Positions 16,215 through 37,627 of a DNA stretch of 64,000 nucleotides are shown here, in pieces (positions within the stretch are counted from its first letter, which is position 1; each line of letters begins with the position of its first letter). The DNA comes from Sinorhizobium terangae (lineage in GTDB: Bacteria; Pseudomonadota; Alphaproteobacteria; Rhizobiales; Rhizobiaceae), in NCBI RefSeq assembly GCF_009601505.1, contig NZ_WITC01000061.1:62001-126000 (forward strand), given 5' to 3'. The translations under genes and the position numbers were made by a program. Under the pieces are notes generated by a model, which was given only the letters and a program-made list of their open reading frames with translations, made no database searches and was not told the DNA's origin.

Positions 16215-16240
16215 GGAACCAAACGCCACTGAGGCCCGTT
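16215..16240 (+). promoter_or_regulatory. EcfG/RpoE2-type promoter (full consensus)
   Basis: GGAAC at 16215-16219, 17 bases, CGTT at 16237-16240; 35 bases before ATG 16275. Confidence 0.8.
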
Positions 16241-16274
16241 TGCGTAACAAACCCAAGTTGCCAGGAGGTCACGC

Positions 16275-16646
16275 ATGCATCTCGTTGGAACACAGGTCAT
16301 CCCCGAACAGGGCGGCCGATCAGGTTTCACGGTCGAATTCGTCGGTGAAGGTGGAGAGATCGTTTCCGTTTCGATGCGCAACGACGCATCGCGGAGCATT
16401 AACCGGCTAAACGCCGTCGAACGGGCCAAGGCGGTTATGCTGGAGCTTGCACACGCCGATGCGCCGGACAGCAGCGATGCCGACGTAGAGCGTAACGTGA
16501 AGGCTGCACGGACCGCAAGGGCAGCCAAGGACGCGGCCGAGATGGAGCGCCAGCTCGACCAGGGCCTGGAAGATACCTTTCCTGCCAGTGACCCCGTTTC
16601 CGTCACGGGTTCAACCATCGCCAGCGACCATAGGAAGAAGCATTAG
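16275..16646 (+). CDS. hypothetical stress-associated protein
   Basis: A 123-residue soluble, Ala- and Asp-rich protein. No known fold is recognised in the first 60 residues (a short beta-rich stretch, [18 protein letters not shown], then a helix). The C-terminus carries [18 protein letters not shown], a motif I know from many small rhizobial proteins of unknown function. AGGAGG precedes ATG 16275. A full-consensus EcfG promoter sits just upstream and the SDR gene starts 3 bases after the stop, so both are probably induced in the general stress response. Function unknown. Confidence 0.8.
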
Positions 16647-16649
16647 GCC

Positions 16650-17432
16650 ATGGCGGATCGGTCGTCTGTCGCCCTGGTCACTGGAGCGGGATCCGGCATC
16701 GGCCGCGCCACCGCCCTTGCTCTTGCCGCCGACCGAGTGAAGGTCGGCCTGCTCGGTCGCACCCGCACGGAGCTCGAAGATTGCGCCTCGGCGATCGGTG
16801 CTGCCGGGGGCCAAGCATTGGTGCTCGAAGCCGATGTCGCGGATGAGCTTGCGATGCGAAACGCGGTGAAGACACTCGTCCGTGAATTCGAGCATCTCGA
16901 TGTCGTCGTAGCCAATGCCGGCATCAACGGCGTCTGGGCGCCGATCGACGACTTGAAGCCGTCTGAATGGGACAAGACCATTGCCGTCAATCTGCGCGGG
17001 ACGTTTCTGACGCTGCACACGACGGTTCCCTATCTCAAGCAAAACGGCGGCGGTGCAATTGTCATCGTATCGTCGATAAACGGCACCAGGACCTTCACCA
17101 CACCTGGAGCAACCGCGTACGCCGCTACCAAGGCGGCGCAGGTGGCGATGGTCCAGCAACTCGCCCTTGAATTGGCCAGGCACCGCATTCGGGTGAATGC
17201 CGTGTGCCCGGGAGAGATCGAGACGCGGATCGACGAGAACACCAACCTGCGCAATGCGGACGAAACCGCAATACCGGTAGAATGGCCGGACGGCCAAATC
17301 CCGATCACCGGCGGCAAACCCGGCCGCAGCGAAGACGTTGCGGAGGTGATTCGATTCCTGGTTTCGGATGACGCGCGACACGTCACTGGCAGCCCCATCT
17401 GGATAGACGGTGGTCAGGGCCTGCTCAGGTAA
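16650..17432 (+). CDS. short-chain dehydrogenase/reductase (SDR)
   Basis: A 260-residue classical SDR. TGAGSGIG at residues 10-17 binds NAD(P), NAGI lies near 90, the catalytic Ser is in IVIVSSING and the YAATK motif supplies Tyr and Lys. The C-terminus GSPIWIDGGQGLL is typical. It follows the 16275 gene with a 3-base gap and probably shares its EcfG promoter. Substrate unknown; SDRs of this type are frequent in alphaproteobacterial stress regulons. Confidence 0.9.
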   Translation: MADRSSVALVTGAGSGIGRATALALAADRVKVGLLGRTRTELEDCASAIGAAGGQALVLEADVADELAMRNAVKTLVREFEHLDVVVANAGINGVWAPIDDLKPSEWDKTIAVNLRGTFLTLHTTVPYLKQNGGGAIVIVSSINGTRTFTTPGATAYAATKAAQVAMVQQLALELARHRIRVNAVCPGEIETRIDENTNLRNADETAIPVEWPDGQIPITGGKPGRSEDVAEVIRFLVSDDARHVTGSPIWIDGGQGLLR

Positions 17433-17434
17433 AG

Positions 17435-17632
17435 CTAGTCGCCCTTGGTCTTACCCGCGTCCGACAGCTTGCCGCGGTGCGGATCTTTCAGATTTTCCCC
17501 AGCCGCATCCCTGCCCCGCTTGGGATCATCCTTGGCGGGAAGGTAACCCCGCGGCCTCGTCTCCTCCGGTCCTTCCCAGCGCGGCGATTGTTCTGTCGTG
17601 CCGGGTGCACCTGATTTTGGCTTTTTCATCAT
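17435..17632 (-). CDS. small hydrophilic hypothetical protein
   Basis: A 65-residue, highly charged, Pro/Gly/Lys-rich protein with no predicted fold (MKKPKSGAPGTTEQSP, then RGYLPAKDDPKRGRD). Such short disordered proteins are common among alphaproteobacterial stress genes. GGAGAG lies upstream of the double ATG. An EcfG-type promoter at 17658-17682 supports the call. It ends 2 bases from the stop of the convergent SDR gene. Confidence 0.65.
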   Translation of the reverse strand: MMKKPKSGAPGTTEQSPRWEGPEETRPRGYLPAKDDPKRGRDAAGENLKDPHRGKLSDAGKTKGD

Positions 17633-17657
17633 TGCTCTCCAGAATGTTCAGTGGAAA

Positions 17658-17682
17658 AACCTGAGCGGGGGAAAATCGTTCC
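17658..17682 (-). promoter_or_regulatory. EcfG/RpoE2-type promoter candidate
   Basis: On the minus strand GGAAC (17682-17678), 18 bases, TT (17659-17658). It is 26 bases before the start at 17632. Confidence 0.6.
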
Positions 17683-17703
17683 TGACTTTCGAGTATCGCG
17701 CCC

Positions 17704-17734
17704 AAGAAAAGGGCCCCACCGATTGGTGGAGCCC
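17704..17734 (-). terminator. rho-independent terminator (minus strand)
   Basis: GGGCtCCACC / GGTGGgGCCC hairpin with a 4-base loop (17711-17734), followed on the minus strand by CTTTTCTT. It would end transcription of the two small genes at 17874-18385. Confidence 0.7.
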
Positions 17735-17873
17735 GATCTGCACTGTTGTTTGGGAACGCGCGGATCCGTAGGGGCTTGCGGAGAGGGGACTTGTTCCACG
17801 CGGTCCGACACATAAACTGGATGGGTGGCGATTTGTTCCCGATCGGCCTGAGAAAAGCTCGCGCGGCGCTATA

Positions 17874-36367: not shown

Positions 36368-36392
36368 AACTGACCGACGGCGCGACGGTTCC
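36368..36392 (-). promoter_or_regulatory. EcfG/RpoE2-type promoter candidate
   Basis: Minus strand GGAAC (36392-36388), 18 bases, TT (AGTT); 24 bases from 36344. Confidence 0.6.
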
Positions 36393-36426
36393 GTGGTGAT
36401 CGGTCGGACCGGCTGACGCTGCGGCT

Positions 36427-36690
36427 TCAATGGCGATGGATGAATTTGCAGAAGCGACTGGTCTGGCCGTCTTCGGTCAGGTCCTGATGCAGAAAGGCCA
36501 GGTTGTTCTTCTCGAAGATCTCGAAGAACTCATCCCAGGAAATTTCCTCCAGCGTGTCTTCCGGTGTGCCGAAATCGATGCGCAGCAGCCCGCCGTCGGT
36601 TGCGCCTTTGACGCGTGCCGGGTGGCCGCTGCGGGCCTCGGCCCAGTTGCGGATGGTGTCGTGGTCGATCGTGGTGTTTGAAGCGCTCAT
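36427..36690 (-). CDS. conserved hypothetical protein
   Basis: An 87-residue protein: HDTIRNWAEARSGHPARVKG, LLRIDFG, EEISWDEFFEIFEKNNLAFL and FIHRH. I recognise the pattern as a widespread unnamed bacterial family, often beside stress genes, with no known activity. GGGAGAG precedes ATG 36690, and an EcfG-type promoter candidate ends 36 bases upstream. Confidence 0.78.
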   Translation of the reverse strand: MSASNTTIDHDTIRNWAEARSGHPARVKGATDGGLLRIDFGTPEDTLEEISWDEFFEIFEKNNLAFLHQDLTEDGQTSRFCKFIHRH

Positions 36691-36725
36691 TGGAAGCTCT
36701 CCCGCTGTGGCTTGTTTGCACCTCT

Positions 36726-36750
36726 AATCCATCGCGCCCGCGATTGTTCC
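36726..36750 (-). promoter_or_regulatory. EcfG/RpoE2-type promoter candidate
   Basis: Minus strand GGAAC (36750-36746), 18 bases, TT (36727-36726). Confidence 0.55.
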
Positions 36751-36802
36751 GAACGGCGGCCGCACGGTTACGGACAGCGGGGCTCGTCTTCCTGCAAATG
36801 CG

Positions 36803-37264
36803 CTACTGGCCGAACGTTCCGACGATTGCGGCTTCGTCGATCAAGTGCTTGCGCGCCCTCTTCCAGGCTTCCTCCGCCCCGACGTCTTCCGGAATCGAAA
36901 GATTGGGGGCGTCAAGTGCAGCAAGCCTGAACCAGTAGTGGTGGACGCCGGTGCCGGCCGGCGGCTGCGGTCCGTCGTAGCGGGCATTGCCGAAGTCGTT
37001 CTTGATGAACTTGATGCCGTGCTCCGGTCCGGTATCGACCGCTTGCGGCAGTTCCGTCCAGCTGCCGGGAATGTTGATGATCGCGCAGTGACGAAACATT
37101 CCTCGCGGCGCGTCCGGATCCTCGACGATGAGGGCGAAGCTCTGCGTTCCCTCGGGCGTGCCCGTCCACTTCAGCGGCGGGAAGAGGTTTTCGCCCAGTC
37201 GCGTATATTTCTGCGGGATGAGTTGCCCATCTACGAATGCTGGGCTGATCAGGCTGAAGGTCAT
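36803..37264 (-). CDS. YbhB/YbcL family (PEBP-like) protein
   Basis: A 153-residue phosphatidylethanolamine-binding-like protein with the family order: SPAFVDGQLIPQKYTRLGEN, PPLKWTGTPEG, ALIVEDPDAPRGMFRHCAI (the DPDxP motif) and YDGPQPPAGTGVHHYWFRL (the GPxPPxGxHxY motif). Cytoplasmic, ligand and role unknown; the Raf-inhibitor name reflects homology only. AAAGGAG precedes ATG 37264. No EcfG promoter found. Confidence 0.92.
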   Translation of the reverse strand: MTFSLISPAFVDGQLIPQKYTRLGENLFPPLKWTGTPEGTQSFALIVEDPDAPRGMFRHCAIINIPGSWTELPQAVDTGPEHGIKFIKNDFGNARYDGPQPPAGTGVHHYWFRLAALDAPNLSIPEDVGAEEAWKRARKHLIDEAAIVGTFGQ

Positions 37265-37330
37265 CCACGTGCTCCTTTCTTGCTGCGCACCGAAAGGCTA
37301 TGGCGCCACTCCACCTCGGACACTGTCGAA

Positions 37331-37357
37331 AAAAGGAGCCTCGTCGAGACGAGGCTC
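37331..37357 (-). terminator. strong rho-independent terminator on the minus strand with no gene upstream of it
   Basis: GAGCCTCGTC / GACGAGGCTC (37336-37357) is a 10-base perfect inverted repeat, followed on the minus strand by CCTTTTTTC. Reading leftward it lies upstream of YbhB, so it must end some other transcript. Confidence 0.75.
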
Positions 37358-37460
37358 ATAAGACGAACCAGCATAGGAGAGACCGCCGAGGAGCCTCCAG
37401 ATTTTGGGTCGGAGAACGCGCTCCGTGCGATCCACACATCAAACATTATTCCCGAAGGAA
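37331..37460 (-). ncRNA. candidate small RNA ending at the orphan terminator
   Basis: On the minus strand the 100 or so bases before the terminator contain no credible ORF but carry CU-rich stretches (GGCTCCTCGGCGG, GTCTCTCCTATG) resembling anti-Shine-Dalgarno loops of alphaproteobacterial trans-acting sRNAs. The 5' end is a guess. The 427-base gap between YbhB and glgA is otherwise only the glgA leader. Confidence 0.35.
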
Positions 37461-37602
37461 TGTTCCACGACCGCGGATAAATTTTGCGCCATCCCTGGCT
37501 GTGTCGCAGACCCCGCGGGGGCCGAATTCCGCACCCTGGGCTGGCTTCGCGGCGCCTCGTTCAAATCCGCGCATCCACGCATCGAAATTCTCGACATGTG
37601 GC

Positions 37603-37627
37603 GGAACTTTGGTAGCTTGATTGTGTT
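37603..37627 (+). promoter_or_regulatory. EcfG/RpoE2-type promoter candidate, glgA
   Basis: GGAAC, 18 bases, TT (TGTT); 65 bases before the glgA start. Confidence 0.5.

Follow-up and report, generated by a model that had tools for sequence, protein, structure and literature searches.

What gathers promoters of the general stress response around a single sigma factor gene, and which sigma factor reads them? The question is raised by a segment of Sinorhizobium terangae DNA between 15.6 and 37.7 kb of a 64-kb stretch (the window: bases 62001-126000 of contig C98, in a genome of 7.08 Mb in 139 contigs), where a sequence-only reading had seen a dense stress island of RpoE2-type promoters. Directly visible in the DNA are the clustering of the sites, their placement before starts, the conservation of their boxes, the identity of the resident sigma factor as RpoE5, its NepR-like neighbour, the repetition of the arrangement at 80 paralogues and two classes of -10 box. 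We propose, with confidence and doubt about evenly balanced, that the island is a general-stress gene cluster around the accessory EcfG-type sigma factor RpoE5, and that it may serve a two-step response with a local promoter code of its own.

The strict motif GGAAC-N16/17-CGTT occurs seven times in the window, always within 16-36 kb (shuffle mean 1.2; 0 of 100 shuffles reach seven). With the base before GTT left free (GGAAC-N16/17-NGTT, hereafter NGTT) there are 21 sites, two of them overlapping on opposite strands; all lie within 15.6-37.7 kb and 20 within 16-38 kb. The looser GGAAC-N18/19-TT matches 31 times, 27 of these within 16-38 kb and 28 within 15.6-37.7 kb. A 1.787-Mb sample of the same genome (10 contigs or parts of contigs, several picked for holding matches) holds 145 NGTT sites, a mean of 1.78 per 22 kb, and the island, with 20, is its densest 22 kb, which upholds the earlier claim of density. 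Five control spacers peak at 3-7 per 22 kb across the sample, and the Poisson chance of at least 20 NGTT sites per 22 kb at the mean rate is ~8e-15, a figure that ignores the picking of the window. The next hot spots lie at C98:209 kb (13), C98:186 kb (13), C70:146-168 kb (9) and C56:36-58 kb (7); for the strict motif alone C70:146-168 kb equals the island, with seven each. Genome-wide, the strict motif has 162 matches and a reversed control 158; the signal is local clustering, with no genome-wide excess of the motif. On the whole S. terangae replicon, 7 of 52 strict sites fall within 1821-1841 kb; in Sinorhizobium mexicanum 8 of 48 fall within 520-541 kb and in Sinorhizobium chiapasense 8 of 32 within 271-289 kb. 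A second cluster on the contig, C98:186-231 kb, about 90 kb from the island, carries 26 NGTT sites, one with CGTT, among genes that by eye read as ferritin-like, CsbD-like, glycosyltransferase and dehydrogenase. Mirror-image matches on contigs C32 and C33 suggest that these contigs are duplicated in the assembly.

Seven strict sites lie before starts and are conserved as EcfG-type promoters, six of them at no more than 41 nucleotides (nt) from the start. These six (16215, 18415, 26140, 30488, 34231 and 35587) had been placed correctly by the sequence-only reading, at 29-42 bases before starts on the correct strand; from the -10 box to the start we measure 34, 29, 41, 37, 28 and 29 nt, respectively. 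It had missed the seventh, at 20821-20845 on the minus strand. Where it counted 19 GGAAC-N18/19-TT sites before starts, we retain 23 of the 28 in 15.6-37.7 kb; 18 of the 23 have a start 20-55 nt downstream in an open reading frame (ORF) matched in a related species. Five retained sites are weaker (15691, 17815, 18616, 20821 and 37442), and the five set aside look like chance, as the same reading had warned of the loose motif. With a gene finder, which misses small ORFs, only 11 of 21 island sites, and 18 of 86 background sites, have a called start 10-120 nt downstream (p 0.006); the same holds for 3 of the 6 control-spacer matches inside the island, and the ORF-based list of starts is more lenient.

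The boxes have been held more tightly than the spacers between them. Box bases are identical at 120/120 positions in S. mexicanum (spacer 219/258; 15 of 23 sites aligned), at 143/144 in S. chiapasense (spacer 269/309; 18 of 23) and at 45/48 in Sinorhizobium meliloti (spacer 69/103; 6 of 23). In the five set-aside matches, which lie away from starts, the figures are 23/24 in S. mexicanum (three aligned) and 13/16 in S. chiapasense (two aligned). A or T at both +7 and +8, a feature unused in finding the sites, is present in 13 of 21 island sites, 23 of 37 in other hot regions and 21 of 87 in the background (island against background, p 0.0015). By alignment, two island sites are orthologs of the S. 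meliloti promoters of rpoE5 and SMb21442, which have been mapped as RpoE2-dependent in the published text (PMC6180224), and the exact published rpoE5 promoter was found just before the sigma gene of S. meliloti strain ABS7. The claim of an EcfG-type sigma factor inside a dense general-stress cluster of conserved EcfG-type promoters is supported.

The island sigma factor has ECF-type Sigma70 regions 2 and 4 and similarity to PhyR_sigma2, as expected of the EcfG/ECF15 group. It shares 43% identity over 149 residues with the RpoE2 of the same genome and 84.5% with the pSymB paralogue of S. meliloti, the protein behind the published rpoE5 promoter; RpoE5 is its closest S. meliloti relative, with the same promoter and the same RsiA-like ORF, and by sequence similarity it is an RpoE5-type paralogue, not rpoE2. 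The rpoE2-nepR-phyR genes lie at C94:1.5-3.2 kb and a second nepR-phyR pair at C70:152.6-153.8 kb; because the island sigma factor has no adjacent nepR and phyR pair, we class it as accessory rather than canonical. The second pair sits in a smaller cluster of its own (C70:146-156 kb), whose sites are mostly CGTT (6 of 8). Accessory and canonical sigma rows split with full support in a tree built by a quick method from rows gathered with different queries, with long branches flagged; the tree does not include Rhizobium etli EcfG2.

Beside the sigma gene lies a NepR-like ORF resembling the RsiA-like ORF that the accessible literature reports in S. meliloti. A profile grown from its product matches 22 of 22 known nepR loci (worst E 9.7e-9); these loci lay in the searched set, and some may have entered the profile during iteration. 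Against Pfam NepR (PF18557) the protein falls below the cut-off (15.1 vs 25.7 bits, E 0.018). Position and similarity make it a candidate anti-sigma partner of RpoE5.

Is the arrangement peculiar to S. terangae? A scan of genome contigs gave 393 relatives of the sigma factor, of which the best 80, many of them near-copies, were kept; 11 of the 80 surrounding stretches are cut short and 69 are full-length. These loci carry a mean of 9.3 NGTT sites per 20 kb (median 8.8, lowest value 1.0; at least 5 in 64 of 80), control spacers giving 0.7-1.3 per 20 kb by group. Genome-wide, 16 of these genomes hold 218-443 NGTT sites in 5.0-7.4 Mb, or 0.84-1.32 per 20 kb; they were chosen after their densities were known, which biases any comparison of accessory with canonical loci confined to them, and all 80 loci were used for it instead. 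Across the full-length loci, sites peak at the sigma gene (1.81 per tenth of the stretch, ~2 kb) and fall to 0.29 and 0.68 at the ends. In 72 of 80 loci the 350 nt before the sigma match contain a GGAAC-N18/19-TT site, as against ~3% expected. The 17 canonical loci average 5.6 per 20 kb (median 4.0; accessory against canonical, Mann-Whitney p 0.001) while at five second nepR-phyR loci the mean is 7.2. Clustering is therefore a feature of the stress response as a whole, though stronger at accessory copies. At 46 of 80 loci a NepR-like gene is found no more than 1.5 kb away, convergent and downstream in 34 of these; over the whole stretch the number rises to 58, two of them with the gene at the very edge. 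No PhyR-length match was found in any of the 80 accessory stretches (best 58.9 bits, vs 374-532 in two positive-control loci of the S. terangae genome). Since nepR matches in Neorhizobium galegae and Stappia indica lie apparently on the same contig, ~24-40 kb from the accessory locus, the separation of accessory from canonical genes is not always wide.

What sets the accessory loci apart is the base before GTT. At canonical or second nepR-phyR loci it is C in 111 of 129 sites (Sinorhizobium/Ensifer canonical 28/33, other canonical 54/60, second nepR-phyR 29/36), in line with S. meliloti, where CGTT is found in 7 of 8 RpoE2-dependent promoters in the published text, the eighth being that of rpoE5 itself, with CATT (PMC6180224; one row labelled RpoH2 left out of the count). 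At Sinorhizobium RpoE5 loci it is C in 70 of 213 (Fisher 5e-23), in the Ensifer adhaerens group in 21 of 87, in Shinella and one Rhizobium in 0 of 28, at R. etli EcfG2 and two related plasmids in 4 of 29, in the island in 7 of 21 and at C98:186-231 kb in 1 of 26. Over all 725 accessory-locus sites, a total that includes eight loci outside these groups (L162, L171, L172, L175, L176, L189, L192 and L197), C makes up 27%, and G 40%, compared with 31% G among 277 control-spacer sites. The label RpoE2-type, given by the sequence-only reading to all of the island's sites, thus fits only the minority with the CGTT that dominates at canonical loci.

The split appears as well when no -10 box is assumed. 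Among 4-mers after GGAAC, GGTT at offset 16 tops the accessory sets (69 vs 4.4 in 18 loci; 136 vs 11.8 in 54 loci), and CGTT tops the 22 canonical or second loci (77 vs 6.1); the count took in 72 of the 80 accessory loci, with the Ensifer adhaerens group left out. Among Sinorhizobium orthologs, none of the 91 sites (of 99) that still match has switched class: 35 stay C and 56 stay non-C. Sites of the genome sample with A or T at +7/+8 comprise 36 non-C sites, 25 of them on C98, and 21 C sites, four of them on C98. Further downstream, the second base after GTT is preferentially G (58% of 327 sites at the 54 divergent loci and 40% of 163 Sinorhizobium sites); canonical sites have no such preference, and T follows GTT in 56% of 85. 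We also considered palindromic GGAAC-N17-GTTCC sites (34 in the 80 loci) as shared divergent promoters and rejected them, as CC follows GTT in 76/725 (10.5%) and in 34/295 (11.5%) of own-genome controls; a smaller control within the accessory loci gives 16/277 (5.8%).

Residues of the sigma factors are loosely in keeping with a changed reading of the -10 box. The -35 helix residues K154, S155 and R156 are common to 81 accessory and 17 canonical rows (gaps in three rows). The loop after F59 differs: all 17 canonical rows have N at residue 64 and A at residue 67, while the 81 accessory rows have S at residue 67 throughout and mostly S (35), R (33) or N (8) at residue 64. Counted from F59, residue 64 lines up with N77 of Mycobacterium tuberculosis SigH, reported in the text of PMC6411747 to contact T-9.

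From these observations we propose the following course of events. Stress would activate PhyR and so free RpoE2 from NepR; RpoE2 would then fire the CGTT promoters and that of rpoE5, which it is reported to switch on in S. meliloti (PMC6180224, published text). RpoE5, held in check by its NepR-like neighbour, would in turn fire, wholly or in part, the non-C sites (GGTT, AGTT and TGTT), both those around its own gene and those of the contig's second cluster, and the outcome would be a stress response in two steps with a local promoter code. More broadly, and a shade less confidently than for the island itself, we suggest that RpoE5-type EcfGs, often with a NepR-like protein and without a nearby PhyR, may give the general stress response of alphaproteobacteria a second branch, one that has a promoter code to itself (GGAAC-N17-GTT with G, A or T, rather than C, before the GTT) and targets gathered around the sigma gene.

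Several observations weigh against this proposal. Canonical loci are enriched in sites too; 34 of 80 accessory loci have no NepR-like gene within 1.5 kb, and five fall below 2.5 sites per 20 kb. Neorhizobium and its relatives are an exception to the -10 split, with C in 21 of 36 sites, and in the island alone the top 4-mer is CGTT (6, vs 5 for GGTT). The eight ortholog sites that no longer match are mostly CGTT (7 of 42, vs 1 of 57 others), and the changed base lies upstream of the T-9 contacted by SigH N77. Published experiments add to these. When RpoE5 was overexpressed in S. meliloti, as described in the accessible text, the only gene to rise did so 1.7-fold and has no RpoE2-like motif; this weak regulon speaks against RpoE5 reading non-C sites unless RpoE5 was held inactive, which its authors treat as formally possible. 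In R. etli, by the accessible text, ecfG2-dependent genes yielded no motif, with the EcfG1 motif in 1 of 19 units, and a target table for Sphingomonas melonis EcfG includes GGTT sites, so a canonical EcfG can have them.

In the strongest alternative, a single sigma factor with relaxed promoters would suffice if RpoE2 read all sites, the non-C ones being weaker RpoE2 promoters, with RpoE5 minor or idle and the cluster a part of the known RpoE2 regulon. The near absence of an effect of RpoE5 overexpression, the GGTT sites of S. melonis and the CATT of the RpoE2-dependent rpoE5 promoter (PMC6180224) all fit it, as does the report that RpoE2 overexpression raises 320 genes, 93 of them with the motif upstream of the start site. 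Relaxed reading by RpoE2 sits less easily with the concentration of non-C sites at accessory paralogues and not at the canonical loci examined, with the preference for G above the control-spacer level and with the retention of class in orthologs; we regard it as a serious contender that falls somewhat short of even.

Only slightly less credible, and compatible with either account of the promoters, is a different role for the NepR-like protein, which could be a NepR2-type antagonist of PhyR, and so a feedback brake on the whole response, rather than an anti-sigma factor of RpoE5. The accessible S. melonis text has such a case in NepR2, whose locus number is next to that of ecfG and which binds PhyR as a negative regulator. 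The position of the NepR-like gene beside a sigma factor, with no PhyR found near, argues for the anti-sigma role, as does a pattern of the accessory group (R-L near the middle, L-A and L-Q-x-A-L) distinct from the canonical one in the rows shown.

Recent acquisition of a mobile stress island by the megaplasmid is very improbable. G+C is slightly low in 20-26 kb (57-60%), and in the stretches compared nothing in S. mexicanum matches the part beyond 35.6 kb, nor anything in S. chiapasense the second SDR gene; against this, the 15.6-37.7 kb segment is present over its whole length, at 99.4% identity, in the 2.09-Mb plasmid pCB3126_1 of S. terangae CB3126, and megaplasmids of S. mexicanum and S. 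chiapasense match 76-77% of it at ~87% identity, in blocks of the same order; both species align at the left edge and S. chiapasense at the right one too. There is no tRNA in the window; no systematic search for integrases was made. The replicon is a pSymB-like megaplasmid and the cluster neither unique nor visibly mobile; the idea of a discrete module gathered on this replicon is not supported, given the second cluster ~90 kb away on the contig and a gene order kept over much of the segment in three Sinorhizobium species. Chance or base composition, which does produce matches to the loose motif and could account for the five chance-like and perhaps the five weak sites, is refuted for the cluster as a whole by shuffles, genome density, box footprint, A/T at +7/+8 and 4-mer counts, and can be set aside with near certainty.

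Sites of the island with the genes they precede (window positions; distances from the -10 box to the start)
Feature	Position (strand)	Gene context	Orthologs and remarks
TGTT site	15691..15716 (+)	32 nt before low-affinity iron permease (15749-16174)	TGTT 5/6, 1 non-matching; one ortholog with gapped -35 box; weak
CGTT site	16215..16240 (+)	34 nt before orf123 (16275-16646), SDR gene behind	CGTT 8/12, 4 non-matching
GGTT site	17658..17682 (-)	25 nt before 65-aa ORF (17435-17632)	GGTT 6/6
AGTT site	17815..17839 (-)	without clear gene	GGTT in 8/8 aligned
CGTT site	18415..18439 (-)	29 nt before 83-aa ORF (18134-18385)	2/2 aligned non-matching, despite a CGTT site at that place in S. chiapasense and S. 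mexicanum
GGTT site	18616..18641 (+)	108-180 nt before second SDR gene (18822-19613)	no aligned ortholog; weak
CGTT site	20821..20845 (-)	301 nt before CBS gene (19989-20519); also 114 nt before another ORF	CGTT 7/8, 1 non-matching
GGTT site	21643..21667 (-)	51 nt before DUF1236 gene (21307-21591)	GGTT 3/3
CATT-type promoter of sigma gene	22636..22660 (+)	46 nt before start	S. meliloti ortholog mapped, RpoE2-dependent
RpoE5-type accessory EcfG sigma factor, 174 aa	22707..23231 (+)		Pfam Sigma70_r2, r4_2, PhyR_sigma2
NepR-like small protein, 58 aa	23255..23431 (-)	convergent with rpoE5	
GGTT site	23863..23887 (-)	53 nt before DUF3008 gene (23621-23809)	GGTT 5/5; overlapped by opposite-strand TGTT match 23861-23885
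GGAAC-N19-TT site	25262..25286 (-)	25 nt before 165-aa ORF (24739-25236) without Pfam match	
CGTT site	26140..26164 (-)	41 nt before DUF2934 gene (25850-26098), CBS gene behind	CGTT 8/8; ortholog of mapped RpoE2-dependent SMb21442 promoter
GGTT site	26481..26505 (+)	20 or 41 nt before BON gene (26547-27239, possible start 26526)	GGTT 4/4
CGTT site	30488..30512 (-)	37 nt before glgX (28348-30450), topoisomerase IB gene behind	CGTT 8/8
AGTT site	30545..30570 (+)	22-28 nt before treZ (30599-32407)	AGTT 8/8
GGTT site	32409..32433 (+)	33 or 63 nt before udgX (32497-33168; possible start 32467)	GGTT 8/8
CGTT site	34231..34255 (-)	28 nt before DUF3175 gene (33909-34202), GST gene behind	CGTT 2/2
CGTT site	35587..35611 (-)	29 nt before 71-aa ORF (35342-35557)	CGTT 2/2
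AGTT site	35652..35676 (+)	25 nt before 110-aa ORF (35702-36034)	AGTT 1/1
AGTT site	36368..36392 (-)	29 nt before 60-aa ORF (36156-36338)	AGTT 1/1
GATT-type site	36726..36750 (-)	35 nt before 87-aa ORF (36427-36690)	
TGTT site	37442..37466 (-)	177 nt before PEBP gene (36803-37264)	TGTT 1/1; weak
TGTT site	37603..37627 (+)	43 nt before glgA (37671-39146, starch-synthase domain)	TGTT 1/1

The genes behind these sites are typical cargo of the general stress response, since EcfG targets in S. melonis include treZ, glgX, a topoisomerase IB gene and a YbhB-type gene in the text seen (PMC6599016). Pfam identifies an iron permease, two SDRs, DUF982, two CBS proteins, DUF1236, the ECF sigma factor, DUF3008, DUF6766, DUF2934 and BON; it also finds topoisomerase IB, CBM48/alpha-amylase (GlgX), alpha-amylase/DUF3459 (TreZ), UDG, GST, DUF3175, cupin, PCC, PEBP and starch synthase (GlgA). 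The names GlgX, TreZ and UdgX are taken from the S. meliloti annotation, and several small ORFs match no Pfam family at the limits used. RpoE2 dependence of treZ, udgX or BON orthologs was not found in the accessible published text, supplementary tables aside. The conserved CGTT site at 20821-20845 faces a ~100-nt repeat and could drive a small RNA, with no Rfam match there; a scan of 15-38.5 kb against Rfam gave no match at E<=0.5. Such repeats occur at 20701-20804 and 21195-21303, with copies elsewhere in relatives, and resemble RIME elements.

In the literature as far as accessible, the role of extra EcfG copies is described as not satisfactorily explained and as a point on which there is no general consensus; which promoter pattern non-canonical EcfGs use is likewise called yet to be determined. 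Titles and the opening lines of abstracts on RpoE2/EcfG regulons, clusters, NepR and RpoE5, a scope outside which most subscription journals and supplements fall, contain no description of the clustering or of the -10 split. For these extra copies the present finding supplies a specific prediction of the promoters, a candidate for the anti-sigma partner and a set of target genes, making their role directly testable in laboratory strains of S. meliloti and R. etli.

Among known systems the closest is the rpoE5 (SMb21484) region of pSymB in S. meliloti with the RpoE2 regulon. It has the rpoE5 promoter, an SMb21442-type promoter, an RsiA-like ORF opposite the ORF behind rpoE5, and glgX-treZ-topoisomerase-BON-CBS genes; it differs in that the genes form two blocks ~27 kb apart, and the accessible published text lists sigma-E5 among the factors without promoter prediction and does not describe clustering or -10 classes. 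EcfG2 of R. etli, on plasmid p42f, is likewise a non-canonical, plasmid-borne EcfG without a nearby PhyR, and has 15 NGTT sites in the 35 kb around it, with 10 falling in the 14.4-23.4 kb part of that locus; its neighbours differ (P450, ferritin-like), the accessible report mentions no anti-sigma gene nearby, and on Pop5, one of the related plasmids, the density is no more than 3.9 sites per 20 kb. NepR2 of S. melonis is also a NepR paralogue beside ecfG but acts on PhyR. For the SigT-SigU hierarchy of Caulobacter and the EcfG1-EcfG2 hierarchy of Sphingopyxis the accessible review mentions no gene cluster; what they share with the order of events proposed here is that one EcfG paralogue drives another.

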